DNA of 64,000 nucleotides from assembly GCA_013215295.1 (NCBI GenBank), contig JABSOZ010000004.1, positions 1 through 64,000 of the forward strand, read 5' to 3'. Numbering within the stretch: the stretch's first letter is position 1; the number at the start of each line of letters is the position of its first letter. Positions 54,088-60,837 of the stretch are shown here, piece after piece. The notes beneath the pieces were generated by a model. That model was not told the DNA's origin, did no database searches, and saw only the letters and a program-made list of their open reading frames with translations. Position numbers and translations under genes: made by a program. Source of the DNA: Colwellia sp. (GTDB lineage Bacteria; Pseudomonadota; Gammaproteobacteria; Enterobacterales; Alteromonadaceae).

Positions 54088-54348
54088 TAATTTTTTCTAA
54101 CATCGATTGTTTTTAAGTTGCTGGATAACAGACAATAAGTGATTTGTTAGCATAACAATTTTACTCGGCTTGTGTGCAATAAAATTATCTTCTTATTACA
54201 AAAAAGCACTAAAGACTTAAGCCATTCCCTTCATTATTCAACACTTGTTCGCGGAAAAATACTCTTGTGGTAAACTGGTGATTAACAATTTTTCTTTCAT
54301 TATTTTTATCAGATATTTTTCTAACTTTCCAGCGATTATTATTCAACT

Positions 54349-55509
54349 ATGACAACATCTAAGATCGACTATCATTCATTGGCCGAAAAAATAAAAAAGT
54401 GGGGACAAGCGCTAGGTTTTTCCCAAGTTGGCTTTAGCGATATTGACTTATCTAGTCATGAAAAAGCCTTAACGGATTGGTTAGAAAATAATTATCATGG
54501 TGAGATGGATTACATGGAAAAGCACGGTTTAATGCGGGCACGTGCGCAAGAGCTTGTTGAAGGTACCACCCGAGTGATCAGTGTTCGCATGGATTATTTA
54601 CCCCCAGAAGCAAAATTCGCACACATACTCAAAAAGAAAGATCATGCCTATATCAGCCGCTATGCGCTGGGGCGTGATTATCATAAGTTAATGCGAAAAC
54701 GTCTTAAACAACTTGGTGATAAAATTAGTGAATATTGTGAAACGTTTAATTTTCGTCCTTTCGTTGACTCTGCACCTATTTTAGAAAGGCCTTTAGCTGA
54801 AAAAGCCGGATTAGGTTGGGTAGGAAAGCACTCGCTGCTGATCAACAAGAATGCAGGCTCGTGGTTTTTTTTGGGTGAACTTTTAGTTGATATTCCTTTA
54901 CCTATTAGTGAGCCGACAACAAATGAATGCGGTAGCTGCGTTTCATGTATTAAAATTTGCCCTACACAAGCGATAGTAGCTCCATACGTCGTTGATGCTC
55001 GTCGCTGTATATCATATCTAACGATTGAATTACGTGATGCGATCCCAGAAGAATTCAGACCTTTAATTGGCAATAGAATATATGGTTGTGATGATTGCCA
55101 ACTAATTTGTCCTTGGAATAAATTTGCAAACTTGAGTAATGAAGGTGATTTCTCACCACGTCAGAACATTGATAACATTGAATTATTAACGGTTTTTAGT
55201 TGGGATGAAAAAAACTTTCTGAGTAAAACTGAAGGTTCACCCATCCGACGGATTGGCTTTCAGAGCTGGCAAAGAAATATTGCAGTTGCAATAGGCAATG
55301 CACCTTACACGATAGAAAATATTCAAGCGTTAACGCATAACTTAACCAACGCAGAAAGTATGGTAGCAGAGCATATTCATTGGGCACTAGACCAACAAAA
55401 CCAAAAGCGTATTGCCATAGAACAACAAGATACACTACACGTGAAAAACCTAAGGTTAACCGAAAGATTAATTCGTAGTGTTGAAAAAGGGTTACCTAGA
55501 GACGCTTAA
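54349..55509 (+). CDS. queG: Epoxyqueuosine reductase QueG
   Basis: 386 residues. It performs the last step of queuosine formation in tRNA, using cobalamin and two 4Fe-4S clusters. Seen: FVDSAPILERPLAEKAGLGW with the catalytic Asp140, CGSCVSCIKICP (first cluster, about residues 199-210), and CDDCQLICPWN (second cluster, about 246-256). The C-terminal HEAT-like region follows. Its last bases overlap the 3' end of the convergent receiver-TPR gene by 14 bases, with no terminator between. Confidence 0.95.
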   Translation: MTTSKIDYHSLAEKIKKWGQALGFSQVGFSDIDLSSHEKALTDWLENNYHGEMDYMEKHGLMRARAQELVEGTTRVISVRMDYLPPEAKFAHILKKKDHAYISRYALGRDYHKLMRKRLKQLGDKISEYCETFNFRPFVDSAPILERPLAEKAGLGWVGKHSLLINKNAGSWFFLGELLVDIPLPISEPTTNECGSCVSCIKICPTQAIVAPYVVDARRCISYLTIELRDAIPEEFRPLIGNRIYGCDDCQLICPWNKFANLSNEGDFSPRQNIDNIELLTVFSWDEKNFLSKTEGSPIRRIGFQSWQRNIAVAIGNAPYTIENIQALTHNLTNAESMVAEHIHWALDQQNQKRIAIEQQDTLHVKNLRLTERLIRSVEKGLPRDA

Positions 55510-57154
55510 CGGGTTCAGCTTCCTGCCACTTTATTTTAAGTTTATCAATAGCCTCTAAACCACTGCCCTTGATACTTGAAGATAACAACACCTCAATAGC
55601 TTCATCACCTAATTTGCCATGATGTTCTTCAAACTCGTTACTTTGCTTTATCACAATCAGTATCTTTAACATGCGCATGGTCAGTTTAACATTATGAGGC
55701 GTTAACCTGAGTGCTTGCTGAATAGCGTCTAGTGCTGGTTGCAGACGATTTTTGTCGAAATGTTCGATCGCCATATCATTTAATTGCTTCGGAGAAAAAT
55801 TAATTTCAGCCCGTTCAATGCTTTCTTGTTCTATATATTTATTGATCACTTGGCCAGTAAGTGAATCTCCAGAAACCTGATTACTAATTGCATCTAACAT
55901 TTTTACTGCCTCTTCACGCATGCCCAATTCATGAAAGACCTTTACCTTATCGAGGTTATCTTCAATTTGCGGTGATATTTTTAAATCCACGTGATTTTCA
56001 ATAAGCTTAGTTGCTTTGCCTTTTTGTTCACGAACGATGTATAACCGTGCTTTTATCACCAACAACTGCTGTTTGAATTCACTTATTTCACTACTATATT
56101 CAATTTGAAGTTGTTTAATGTATTTGTCCGTTTGCTTTAAAACAAGCGCTGTCCGTTCATCAGTCAATGCACTGGCTAAATCGATACCTGATCGTATAAC
56201 GTTTAAAAGTAGTTCTGGTGAATCATGAATAGAGTTTTTTGCTTGTTTGGCAATATTACGTGTCGCGACATATTGTCCTTCGTGATCATGATTGAGACGC
56301 GCTAAATCCCAAGACTTTTTATTACGATCAATATTTCGAGGAGATAGCTTTGTGGCTTTTTTTATTTCATCATATGCTTTGTCATATTCCTCTTGCTCAA
56401 TATAATACTGAGCGAGCATATCGTGAGCACCAAACCTTGTAGCCGGCTTCGCGATGAGTTTTTCGAGTAAGTCATTAATTTCGTTAATACGCCCTTGCTT
56501 CAGCAAAGATTTTACATAGCCCAAATAAACCCAAGCATAGGTATAGGTTTTCATTAAACCTTTATAGAAAGCTTCTGCTGTTTCAAATTCTAAAAGATTT
56601 AAATAAGCCTCACCTTTCATGCGTGATATGTTTGAGTGAAAATGATGCAAACGTTCATTAGCTAAGTAGCGGTCTGCAAAATAAATAACTTTTGCAAAAC
56701 TTTTGGTGTCTATCGCTCGATACATGTTGAATAATTGCTTTTTAATTTGCAAAGTATGCACTAAGCGTTCTTTAACTGTTTTAGGTGCAAGTGGTTTTAC
56801 CCAAAAATCATCCGGCTGCAATTCTACAATAGAGTTAACGAGAGACTCACTCGTTTCAGTGCTAAGAAAAATCAGCACCGTGGTTTTATTAACATGACCT
56901 CTAAACTTTAATTCTTCGAGTAAATGAAAACCGTCTTTATCACTATTAACATTAAATGAACAAATAACAATATTAAAACGCTCTGATTCACATAACCTTA
57001 TACCGTAATAAGCACTTTCAGCACATTTTACATGATTAACGCCAATGTCATATAATCCCCTTTTTAGGGTGTCGTGAACTAACCGGTTATCGTCAATTAT
57101 TAATACGGTAAGTTGGGAAAGATCATCCAATTCACTTTGTTCAGTAATTTCCAT
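55496..57154 (-). CDS. Degenerate receiver domain fused to TPR-like repeats
   Basis: 552 residues. The N-terminal receiver (about residues 15-135) keeps the acidic pair Asp21-Asp22, Ser98 at the Thr position and Lys120, but the phosphoacceptor Asp is replaced by Ser66 (VICSFNVNSDKDG). The remainder (about 145-540) is helical with TPR-like repeats (GEAYLNLLEFETAEAFYKGL; AQYYIEQEEYDKAYDEIKKA; DKNRLQPALDAIQQAL). No DNA-binding or enzymatic output domain is present, so it is likely a protein-protein hub. Its ATG directly follows the stop of the DUF1289 gene. Convergent with queG. Confidence 0.8.
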   Translation of the reverse strand: MEITEQSELDDLSQLTVLIIDDNRLVHDTLKRGLYDIGVNHVKCAESAYYGIRLCESERFNIVICSFNVNSDKDGFHLLEELKFRGHVNKTTVLIFLSTETSESLVNSIVELQPDDFWVKPLAPKTVKERLVHTLQIKKQLFNMYRAIDTKSFAKVIYFADRYLANERLHHFHSNISRMKGEAYLNLLEFETAEAFYKGLMKTYTYAWVYLGYVKSLLKQGRINEINDLLEKLIAKPATRFGAHDMLAQYYIEQEEYDKAYDEIKKATKLSPRNIDRNKKSWDLARLNHDHEGQYVATRNIAKQAKNSIHDSPELLLNVIRSGIDLASALTDERTALVLKQTDKYIKQLQIEYSSEISEFKQQLLVIKARLYIVREQKGKATKLIENHVDLKISPQIEDNLDKVKVFHELGMREEAVKMLDAISNQVSGDSLTGQVINKYIEQESIERAEINFSPKQLNDMAIEHFDKNRLQPALDAIQQALRLTPHNVKLTMRMLKILIVIKQSNEFEEHHGKLGDEAIEVLLSSSIKGSGLEAIDKLKIKWQEAEPVKRL

Positions 57155-57367
57155 TTAGCTTTTACCTTGATAAATTTTTTCTTCTGCTGCGGCACGTCTT
57201 TGGATGCAGGTAGTAACAACGATTTTTTTTTCAGCCGTTTTATAGCTTTGCCACGCAAGGATTTCATTTATATGCCGGAAGCAACCTAAGCATATATCCT
57301 CTGTATTTAAACAACAATTTCGCACGCATGGGCTCGGAACTTCGAGTGTTTGTTCATGTTCAATCAT
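57155..57367 (-). CDS. DUF1289 small Cys-rich protein
   Basis: 70 residues. SPCVRNCCLNTEDICLGCFR (about 12-31) and the following EILAWQSYKTAEKK and C-terminal CIQRRAAA are typical of DUF1289 proteins, whose conserved Cys residues probably bind a metal. Function is unknown. It is two bases after the kinase-like gene and abuts the receiver-TPR gene, so all three are in one operon. Confidence 0.85.
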   Translation of the reverse strand: MIEHEQTLEVPSPCVRNCCLNTEDICLGCFRHINEILAWQSYKTAEKKIVVTTCIQRRAAAEEKIYQGKS

Positions 57368-57369
57368 GT

Positions 57370-60300
57370 CTAAATAGCCTCAGCAAACTGATTTAGCAGT
57401 AATTTTTGATGACTCAATTCACTAAATAATACCATAGCTTGCTTATGTTCTGTTGTCACACCTTTGTTAAGGTTCACCAGTAGCTGTTGACAAATATCAG
57501 TAAAATCTACAGCGGCTAGTATTGTCCCTGTTTTAATCAGCGCATGGGTCAAACTTATACCTAGTGGGTGATTTTTCTTTGCGAGCGCAACCGATAGTTT
57601 TTTAACTGTTTCATCAATGTCATCAAGATAATCATCAAGCATTACAACGGCCAACTCGGCTGAGCCCTGATTTTGTGCATATAGCACTAAATTTATGGCA
57701 TCTGCTTGATTGTTCTTCGACGTTTCAGGTAAAGGTAAGGCTAATGTCGGTGATAAGTTGTCTAGCGGTTCATTTGTATTAAGGGTATTTACTTCGCTAC
57801 GCTTGCTTACATGAACGTCATTAGAGAATTTTTCACTTTTATCAATAGAAATCACTTTAGTTTCGTTGCGTTTTAACCAAGGTTGTAATAGTGCAACTAA
57901 AGCGTCAATATTTTTAAGTTCTGGTACGACAAATTCGCCCCATTTTTTAGCTAAGGACTGGTCACCCGATGTCGAAAATTTGCGCTGAGTAAAAGTAAAT
58001 ATATCACGACGTACACCTTTCCCAGCGGCTATTTCAATAAAAGGTGATTGATCAAACTCGGTAAATAATAATAAATATCGACCAGAAGTCCAAAATTTAA
58101 TCATCGCTTTTGGCTGACAAACAATCTTCACCTGTAAACCTAGCCACTGTAAAATACGTATCAAGGTTAAATGTTCTGTTGGACTTGCAACCGCAAAAAG
58201 AACCTCTACTTGCGTGACTAAAAACTGATGTTCAGCAAAGGTATTTGCATCAAGTTTACTATTGCTCTTTTTATTATTAGACAAACAGTCAGATAAGCTT
58301 TGTTGCAGTTCAATTATTTTTAGCGGATTTGCCGTTTGTTGGAATAAACCAAATTTTTCTAATGACGCGTTAAAAAACGGCTGTATTACAAAGAGTTTCG
58401 GTTGGATATTCTTATCCAAATTCGAAATATGTTGTTGAATATTTTCCAGTGACTTTGAATAAAAATCACTACCCAATATAACAAGGTCGATTTTTTTCGC
58501 CGCTAAGTGAGTCGCACTGAGTTGTTGAACAACTAATTCTGGATTAGCAAAACTTTCAATTAATCCATTTGCTGAAGAAATAGATTTTTCGATTGTATCG
58601 CGAATGCTGTTGTCCTGAGAGAGTAATAAAATATTCGTTTGCTTCAAATCGACTTTATTAGATGTTATTTCAGCAGCAGTCTCTACAAAGGCAATAGGAA
58701 GCGTAAATGAAAACTGGTAACCATTATCTTGTAATTGAACATTTTTGTCAGTGACATGCAATGAGTCAAACAGTAAACACATATAATCAAGTGTATCGTT
58801 TGAAATTATTTTTGCTGATTTAGGGCGTTCAACCAATAATAATCGCTCTATCTCCTTGGGCACTTGCGCTATTTTCTTACTCGCCTTTACAGAGAAATTA
58901 AAACGAATAATTTGCTGACCTTCATTCTTATCCAACACCACCGTGTTGATTTGCAAATTAGCTTTAAATAAATCAGCAAGTAATAATCTGCATATTCCAC
59001 TGAAAAGTCGATGAAATAAGCGAATATCTAATTTGGCGTGTGTTAATAATTTTTCGTCTTGTTGGTAATAAATATTATTACGCTGAAAATGCGCGTCTGT
59101 TATGATATTAAGCAATGCAGCGTCTATTTCTCGGTGTAAGGCAACGTCATTCAGTGTCTTTGATTGCATTGCAGACGAAAAATCATTCCGAATTCTATTT
59201 TGTCTGCACCAATCAAAAATTCGCGCTAATTGTCGGTAGACTTGAAGAGAAGTAACACCGGAACCAATAGAAACACTTTGGCTTTGCAACATAGTACGTA
59301 CAACCATATTGCTTAACTTTTCGTTATTTTTTCTATCTTGAGATTTCCGCATCAAGCTTTCTTCAGAAGAAACCGACTCCAAAAATTCAATACAACTTTT
59401 TAACTTTTTGATTTCTTCAAGCTGTTGATTAATATGTTGATTGGTCGTTTTTTGCTCTTCAATCTTTTGCTGATATTGTTTTTCACTATGTACAGGATTC
59501 GTCATTATTTCGAATGATTTTTGAAATTGTTCCGCTATTCGTTTATTTTCTTTAGAATTAAACATATCGGATGTACATTTTTCATCACTATTTTTATTTC
59601 TACTTTCTATGAATTGAGTAAATAGTTGTTCGCTTTCTTGCCCATAGCTTTTAACTTTTTTCTTCACTGCAAAGATCATTCTCAGCAGAAGTAAAAAAAG
59701 TAGCCCGATAAATCCAAGGATCGATAATTGTAAATTTTGGTTGTTGAGGGTGATATTTTGCTGATCGAATAAATCCTTTATTTCAGCAGGAACCCAATCT
59801 ATTAAGAATAGTTTATTGTTTTGAGGTGAAGGCTTAACGGATGATATTTCCAGTACTAATTGTTGTAGTTTTTGCTGTTGTTGCTTAATAAACTCGACGT
59901 ATAAACGAGATAAACGTAAATGACTGCGCCACTTTGCCACTGAATTTTGTTGTGAGAATAGCAGTTGGTCTAACGTTATTAATTGTGTTGTCAATAAAGA
60001 AGTAGGTCTACTTACAAGCCTTCCCGCTGGTAAAAAATTCGTCACCGCTTGTTTTAGTTCTGCGCTAACATCGTCAAACTCAAGAATTGGAGACTGTAAA
60101 TCTAATTGTTGAAAAGCTAACAAAGCTCGAATAATTATTTGTTGCAGTTTTTGTGATTGGCTAAGTTCAGTTAATTGTACGGCGTAAGCTTTAGTTCGAT
60201 TTGCGGTAACTTTATCAGTGAACCTATCGACACTAATTTGCTTTAACAAGAGACTAGTTTGTCGGTTTTTCTCTTTTATGTCAGATGATAATTGATCATT

Positions 60301-60729
60301 AATTAGTTGTAGTTGAATTATCGTATTTTGCTTTAATTGGTAATTTCTATCATGATTTTTATCTAGTTTAGCTATAACGCCGGCAAATTCTTTATGACCG
60401 ATATACATGCGTTCAAGTTGAGATTTATTTTTATTGATGGGTAATGATATTTTATTAATTTGCCGTTGAACGTGTTGATAATCATCCGCTAAATTTTCGG
60501 CATGGGTACGTTTGGCTAAATCATCTAACGCAAGGTATGTCGATAAGATTTGCTGTTGTTGGATATTTTGTTTCGTTAAAAATGGCAGTTTTTCTCCAGC
60601 TAAAAGTGTAACTTGATTATCACGAAGTACTAAAAGCGCCGTTAGAGACGTACAGAGGAAAAGTGATAGGAAAGCAATCCGAAAAAATCGTCCTGATAAT
60701 TGCTGATAAAAGTAGCGAGAAACGTCCAT
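57370..60729 (-). CDS. Large membrane protein resembling a degenerate hybrid histidine kinase
   Basis: 1119 residues from ATG at 60729..60727 (MDVSRYFYQQ), with AAGG about eleven bases upstream; a TTG six codons earlier lacks a ribosome site. Membrane helices at about 17-36 and 336-356 flank a helical, Gln-rich periplasmic sensor of about 300 residues. A coiled coil (about 415-450) follows. The part about 525-680 looks like an ATPase domain of a sensor kinase ending in YQFSFTLPIAF, but no H-box, N-box or DxGxG is visible. Two receiver-like segments (about 698-815 and 838-952) have Gly or Thr where Asp is expected. The C-terminus (about 1010-1090) resembles an HPt domain and keeps His1062 (SLTHALIKTG). 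It probably acts without kinase activity, as a scaffold or phosphotransfer end; that is inference. Confidence 0.7.
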   Translation of the reverse strand: MDVSRYFYQQLSGRFFRIAFLSLFLCTSLTALLVLRDNQVTLLAGEKLPFLTKQNIQQQQILSTYLALDDLAKRTHAENLADDYQHVQRQINKISLPINKNKSQLERMYIGHKEFAGVIAKLDKNHDRNYQLKQNTIIQLQLINDQLSSDIKEKNRQTSLLLKQISVDRFTDKVTANRTKAYAVQLTELSQSQKLQQIIIRALLAFQQLDLQSPILEFDDVSAELKQAVTNFLPAGRLVSRPTSLLTTQLITLDQLLFSQQNSVAKWRSHLRLSRLYVEFIKQQQQKLQQLVLEISSVKPSPQNNKLFLIDWVPAEIKDLFDQQNITLNNQNLQLSILGFIGLLFLLLLRMIFAVKKKVKSYGQESEQLFTQFIESRNKNSDEKCTSDMFNSKENKRIAEQFQKSFEIMTNPVHSEKQYQQKIEEQKTTNQHINQQLEEIKKLKSCIEFLESVSSEESLMRKSQDRKNNEKLSNMVVRTMLQSQSVSIGSGVTSLQVYRQLARIFDWCRQNRIRNDFSSAMQSKTLNDVALHREIDAALLNIITDAHFQRNNIYYQQDEKLLTHAKLDIRLFHRLFSGICRLLLADLFKANLQINTVVLDKNEGQQIIRFNFSVKASKKIAQVPKEIERLLLVERPKSAKIISNDTLDYMCLLFDSLHVTDKNVQLQDNGYQFSFTLPIAFVETAAEITSNKVDLKQTNILLLSQDNSIRDTIEKSISSANGLIESFANPELVVQQLSATHLAAKKIDLVILGSDFYSKSLENIQQHISNLDKNIQPKLFVIQPFFNASLEKFGLFQQTANPLKIIELQQSLSDCLSNNKKSNSKLDANTFAEHQFLVTQVEVLFAVASPTEHLTLIRILQWLGLQVKIVCQPKAMIKFWTSGRYLLLFTEFDQSPFIEIAAGKGVRRDIFTFTQRKFSTSGDQSLAKKWGEFVVPELKNIDALVALLQPWLKRNETKVISIDKSEKFSNDVHVSKRSEVNTLNTNEPLDNLSPTLALPLPETSKNNQADAINLVLYAQNQGSAELAVVMLDDYLDDIDETVKKLSVALAKKNHPLGISLTHALIKTGTILAAVDFTDICQQLLVNLNKGVTTEHKQAMVLFSELSHQKLLLNQFAEAI

Positions 60730-60837
60730 ATTGTACAATACCTTCAACGGTAAATTCGGGTAAAAATACAGTGTAGGGAATTGTCACTAAGAATCAACGA
60801 TTTTTAATGGATACATCGCGCTTTTATTTATACCGTA

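Follow-up and report, generated by a model that had tools for sequence, protein, structure and literature searches.

What can a membrane protein that is built like a hybrid histidine kinase still do when the residues that carry phosphate through such a kinase have been lost? The question is raised by a locus in Colwellia sp. (assembly GCA_013215295.1, contig JABSOZ010000004.1, positions 1 to 64,000 of the forward strand; these 64,000 nucleotides are called the window below), where three minus-strand genes encode, in order, a histidine kinase-like (HK-like) membrane protein, a small DUF1289 protein and a receiver-TPR protein. The initial annotation of the window had described this order, with gaps of 2 bases (HK-like/DUF1289) and 0 bases (DUF1289/receiver-TPR), which we confirm, and its view that these are phosphorelay-like proteins with lost chemistry is borne out by the predicted fold and by residue and Pfam scans. 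We favor, with moderate confidence, the interpretation that the HK-like protein derives from a TorS/BarA-type hybrid histidine kinase, has lost phosphotransfer and is retained as a phosphate-independent receptor that works by docking.

The HK-like gene (57370..60729) starts with ATG, an alternative TTG start being possible at 60747, and encodes 1119 amino acids that the open reading frame, an AlphaFold2 (AF2) model (predicted local distance difference test, pLDDT, 77.5) and fold matches identify as a pseudo-hybrid histidine kinase. The predicted fold resembles that of TorS/BarA-type kinases, which have the tripartite hybrid kinase order. It comprises, with all coordinates on the minus strand, a helical periplasmic sensor whose fold may be TorS/HBM-like (residues 36-335, 59725..60624), a coiled coil with a DHp-like hairpin that lacks the H-box and has a short second helix, as seen in the AF2 model and fold matches (416-518, 59176..59484), a CA-like (Bergerat) fold without recognizable nucleotide lid or boxes (524-682, 58684..59160), a first receiver-like domain with G753 directly after strand 3 (697-820, 58270..58641), a second, less certain one (840-953, 57871..58212) and an HPt-like domain (1008-1119, 57373..57708) with H1062 at the HPt His position, a conserved stretch at 1012-1034 and a C-terminal AEAI. 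Both the DHp-CA fold and the four-helix HPt fold of the tail are present in the model. The CA-like part has the element order b-a-b-b-a-b-b-a-b-b and matches the structures of GacS, RetS, ETR1 and ThkA, and the Foldseek matches of the whole protein include RetS and DivL. The second receiver-like domain, with E891 at the phospho-Asp position, is recognized by element order and by the weak Response_reg trace in L050; it has no row of its own among the structure matches, the ShkA match extending to residue 901. A sequence search of the PDB with the family profile gave no real match, and no intact kinase motif was found in the protein or in its structure prediction. In the sensor, K266 is conserved in 56 of 58 rows and W267 in 57.

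We now turn to the loss of relay chemistry across the HK-like family. Pfam gives only two unrelated matches for the window protein (E 0.12 and 0.18). Scanned at E 1, neither this protein (P0003) nor 16 relatives, four of which lack the core, contain HisKA or HATPase_c, and none has Hpt or Response_reg above the cut-off. Below it there are traces of Hpt (1.9e-4 in L049, 0.0066 in L047, 0.12 in L138) and of Response_reg (0.015 in L050). As a positive control, the intact hybrid kinase of L148 gave HisKA at 4.9e-18, HATPase at 1e-26, receiver at 4.1e-21 and Hpt at 2e-9, and a kinase from the window's own genome was also positive. Among the 49 full-length rows there is no conserved His column within 420-524; the best one, column 436, lies in the coiled coil and has His in 24 of 49, with Gln in the window. 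Column 753 of receiver 1 is never Asp (G 8, S 16, T 9, A 11, others 2, gaps 3), and column 755 is acidic in 38 of the 49. At the phospho-Asp column of receiver 2, Glu is found in 37 rows, Asp in 8, and G, Q, M and N in one each. Plant pseudo-receivers, and many fungal ones, typically have Glu here (PMC12632262).

The C-terminal domain requires a closer look, since the initial annotation had stated that its His is kept. This is right for the window, where H1062 is real and stands at the PF01627 His position, but it is not a trait of the family: of 58 rows, just two, those of the window and L002, have His, the others having Gln (11), Lys (9), Ala (9) and further residues, and the same-genus relatives L003, L004 and L005 have Asn, Ser and Ala. 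The column was checked with ungapped Pfam coordinates, by which the His of the intact kinase, PF01627 position 34, corresponds to the H1062 column of L049, L047 and L138. The residues at H+3/H+4 are Ile-Lys in the window protein versus Lys-Gly in the intact kinase of L148. Conservation of at least 75% is found in fourteen columns of 1012-1034 (F-D-L..Y...QGSxELAxxMLDxY, including E1025, A1027 and M1030) and at L1045, A1048, A1073, L1076, A1116 and I1119, while no column of the His-bearing helix 1054-1072 reaches it. Where the His is missing, the HPt fold is still kept.

Some relatives have gone further. In nine of them, 525-611 aa long, the whole DHp-CA-receiver core is missing, and the sensor, the membrane helices and the His-less HPt are kept. 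A single origin of these core-less forms is rejected by the approximately unbiased (AU) test (p = 1.8e-5), for which 14 of the 58 rows, namely the long-branched L142 and 13 near relatives, were left out; the DHp-CA part is missing in up to four lineages. Foldseek alone gave no match with E below 0.001 for a short form.

The HK-like gene is under purifying selection and is less constrained than its neighbors. Its whole-gene ratio of nonsynonymous to synonymous substitution rates (dN/dS) is 0.13-0.18 between the window and G002, G004 and G001, although dS is 1.5-1.6 in these pairs, near saturation (G005 is saturated). The pair furthest from saturation, G001-G004 (dS 0.51), gives 0.20. The corresponding values are 0.065-0.074 for the receiver-TPR gene and 0.045-0.063 for queG. 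Within the G001-G004 pair, the DHp-like part is lowest at 0.07, followed by both receivers (0.24), HPt (0.35) and the linker (0.49); the linker evolves fast, with 0.31-1.03 over four pairs. Similarly, identity to the window in G001, G002, G004 and G005 is highest in the DHp-like segment, 75-87%, versus 51-61% in the HPt-like domain. No internal stop was seen among the HK-like matches listed, except in G732.

Searched with a 25-row profile (E 1e-15), the bacterial family shows the HK-like gene in 104 of 395 genomes and in 18 of 52 genera; the protein is a family and not a single decayed gene. The named carriers are Colwellia, Cognaticolwellia and Thalassotalea, together with one record titled Endozoicomonas sp. 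and a few uncultured Colwelliaceae/Alteromonadaceae. A search of 394 genomes across the order gave weak, incomplete matches beyond the bacterial family, the best one (E 2.4e-9) being a frame of 113 aa; these were not counted as members. A single-protein search recovered 15 of 59 genomes, the window's included; the distant and short forms needed profile searches. Three profile matches without the sensor part (L063, L066, L068) were removed before neighbors were counted. The chromosomal place is largely constant. Of the 43 loci with a 3 kb flank (44 distinct loci were counted), 40 have queG no more than 2.5 kb downstream, the exceptions being L134 (3.4 kb off), L135 and L138, and upstream, orn or the DUF4442 gene lies within 3 kb in 36 of 41. 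In 20 genomes of the bacterial family without the HK-like gene, orn is retained in the stretch around queG in one, two of these stretches being short.

The third gene of the trio (55496..57154, minus strand) encodes 552 aa with Pfam matches to Response_reg (PF00072, 5.3e-11) and TPR. The initial annotation's statement that its receiver pocket is mostly kept holds for the acid pair, for the invariant S98, T101 and K120 and for the nearly invariant D21, but not for the phospho-Asp place, where all 17 aligned orthologs have Ser or Ala, Ser66 of the window among them (one row with a stop was left out). It is therefore a pseudo-receiver. Of its paralogs, the distant L180 and L182 retain Asp and the nearer L178, L179 and L181 have Ser. 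Another one, in the window's genome (G000:C13:86363-87835, L173:7325-8968), has Gly at this position, so that loss of the Asp recurs in the receiver-TPR family. The ortholog of G004 at L026:1501-3153 contains one in-frame TAG.

The DUF1289 gene between the two (57155..57367, minus strand) encodes a Cys-rich protein of 70 aa (PF06945, 2.2e-16, 59.8 bits versus a cut-off of 27). The CC doublet typical at this locus is present in 41 of 43 locus-linked copies, and also in G022, which has an orn-DUF1289-queG arrangement and no HK-like gene; it is missing from both further DUF1289 copies in the window's genome. The Cys pattern suggests that the protein may bind metal; a sequence search for a solved relative gave none (best E 0.82). 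In one of the papers that mention DUF1289, E. coli ydhL is listed among the overexpression-library genes that give resistance to H2O2 and HOCl. A copy follows the HK-like gene within 400 nt in 44 of 59 unique members. Side by side with queG and with no HK-like gene, DUF1289 was found in 2 of 20 genomes examined (L164:10237-10443 and L154:10561-10776), which indicates that it may be tied to the orn-queG locus. It probably belongs to the locus rather than to the HK-like protein alone.

Do the three genes then form a signaling unit, as the initial annotation proposed? The trio genes are not always separate in other genomes. Counting the window, 31 of 59 unique relatives share the full order, with the receiver-TPR gene within 900 nt of the HK-like gene; on the tree this adjacency is one change, hence one origin, and it persists throughout that clade of 31 rows, where DUF1289 is always present as well. 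An obligate three-gene pathway is nonetheless not supported. Among 24 genomes where the receiver-TPR gene is not adjacent to the HK-like gene, an ortholog stands elsewhere in 6, and in the other 18 there is no ortholog-scale match anywhere (at most 206 bits; two of the 24 assemblies are 80-85% complete). The reverse, a receiver-TPR ortholog without the HK-like gene, occurs in at least nine genomes, and DUF1289 can stand by queG without the HK-like gene. By size of the HK-like protein, DUF1289 and receiver-TPR are neighbors in 40 and 31 of the 46 members of at least 1050 aa, in 2 and 0 of the four intermediate ones and in 2 and 0 of the nine short ones; many rows are close relatives, so these counts are not independent, and any correlation between core and neighbor genes would rest on just two independent pairs on supported branches. 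What survives is conservation within one clade. That the three genes are neighbors by inheritance only and do no joint work is a real possibility, if a less than even one: the missing orthologs, DUF1289 beside queG and the housekeeping character of the surrounding genes all speak for it, against which stand the single joining of the receiver-TPR gene, its persistence throughout the clade together with DUF1289 and the very short gaps in the window. In G008, a 509-aa protein with a signal-like start and, by eye, Sel1/TPR-like repeats occupies the place of both DUF1289 and receiver-TPR (L048:6727-8256).

Chemistry lost while selection is kept, with the core shed in some relatives, suggests signaling without the passing of phosphate. 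In the mechanism we propose, a periplasmic ligand or envelope signal would act at the helical sensor and alter the conformation of the dimer through the coiled coil, and the cytoplasmic part would then dock receiver-type partners without phosphate transfer. The docking surfaces would be the HPt-like tail and, in proteins that retain it, the pseudokinase core; in the core-less relatives the His-less HPt would be the only conserved cytoplasmic output remaining. In the window's lineage the pseudo-core is strongly conserved and probably docks something too, the leading candidate for a partner being the pseudo-receiver-TPR protein encoded alongside it. A bolder version, in which the relay is wholly converted to phosphate-free signaling, a membrane-tethered His-less HPt docks receivers by conformation and the core is a dispensable relic shed in several lineages, we entertain only tentatively and on balance doubt.

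It is important to point out that several observations weigh against the favored reading. The window's own copy has the HPt His, and receiver 2 has kept Asp in 8 of 49 rows. The DHp-like part is more constrained than the HPt tail in the window's genus, so that the tail is not plainly the main or sole output there. Finally, RcsD, which also lacks the kinase His, is reported to autophosphorylate (PMC3762810).

Another option considered is that the His-less HPt, possibly with the pseudo-receivers, occupies the receivers of active kinases and blocks their phosphorelay, or inhibits a kinase. Models for this are plant pseudo-HPts such as AHP6, and RetS, which inhibits GacS. The HPt fold retained without His agrees with it, as do RetS and DivL among the structural matches, and binding of rice pseudo-HPts to receptors and to regulators has been reported (PMC12115143). 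However, no partner kinase was identified, the helix 1054-1072 is without any well-conserved column, and RetS-type pairing requires the DHp, which core-less forms lack; we regard a competitor as rather unlikely. A comparable case is FimL of Pseudomonas aeruginosa, whose HPt-like domains have Gln at two His sites, so that canonical transfer is thought unlikely (PMC3019171); Gln is likewise the commonest residue of our HPt column. The likeness noted is one of features; FimL itself is tied to the chemosensory ChpA system and not to a TorS-type membrane receptor. A competitor role or a FimL-like complex fits the findings as well as a docking receptor does.

Phosphotransfer of the RcsD kind, with a dead kinase part and an HPt that still passes phosphate from a different hybrid kinase on to a regulator, appears improbable. 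It could draw on H1062 in the window and L002, on the intact predicted HPt fold and on RcsD itself, a precedent with a lost kinase His (PMC3762810). The His is, however, absent from 56 of 58 rows, same-genus relatives among them, the H+3/H+4 residues differ from those of the intact kinase, and the core-less forms have no HPt His either. Phosphotransfer through H1062 may occur in the window species alone. That the gene is functionless and decaying, to which the lost motifs, the fast linker and the many size classes might point, was rejected on dN/dS (0.13-0.20) and is hardly credible given the near-absence of internal stops among the listed matches, the closeness to queG in 40 of 43 loci and the conserved K266, W267, E1025, A1027 and M1030.

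How does the proposed phosphate-independent docking receptor compare with what is known? The order of parts and the predicted folds of DHp, CA, receiver and HPt, and perhaps that of the periplasmic helical sensor (TorS), are shared with TorS/BarA-type kinases, whereas the HK-like family lacks the H-box, recognizable nucleotide boxes, the receiver-1 Asp and, in 56 of 58 rows, the HPt His, has a second receiver-like domain and has lost the core in some relatives. With RcsD it shares a membrane sensor, a dead kinase part and a C-terminal HPt, but in RcsD the HPt His is retained and serves as a relay step (PMC3762810), and the HK-like family has two receiver-like domains. DivL and RetS likewise use a kinase fold for protein docking; DivL docks DivK~P (PMC4211667), whereas in the HK-like family the HPt and the receivers have lost their chemistry as well and the DHp-CA part can be missing. 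Dead kinases and receivers are already known, as are single His-less HPts, and pseudo-receivers and pseudo-histidine kinases are recognized as such. Asp-less or pseudo-receivers make up about 6% of a representative bacterial set and His-less Hpt domains 0.9%, and how bacterial pseudo-receivers switch is called a mystery, according to PMC12632262. What differs here is the loss of all relay steps in one polypeptide and an adjacent protein. In searches of an open-licence library we found nothing on this locus, nor any account of a receptor that has lost each of its relay steps and also exists in natural core-less versions. The family is a natural deletion series: one receptor, for the most part at an unchanged chromosomal position, has its dead core complete, partial or absent. 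This makes it possible to test directly whether signaling by a relay protein can do without a phosphate step, and which domain is the output.

In the window the trio is flanked upstream by the DUF4442 gene and orn and downstream by the convergent queG; orn, queG and other gene names beyond Pfam matches are our assignments by recognition. A scan for promoters and terminators gave sites no commoner than in shuffles, an anti-phage library scan gave no match, and an NCBIfam scan of six proteins gave no family above its cut-off. The tsaE-queG interval (54088-54348) lacks the ORF of 500-565 aa that many relatives have there, which we take to be nnr/YjeF (NAD(P)HX epimerase-dehydratase). YjeF_N has no match in the window's whole assembly, versus 13 of 14 control genomes positive, and L084 (C. 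hornerae) likewise has no nnr-type ORF between tsaE and queG. In G422 (L148:12568-18061), the intact hybrid kinase (1125 aa) and, by eye, a receiver-GGDEF-EAL-like protein are encoded near the trio and may form a partner system.

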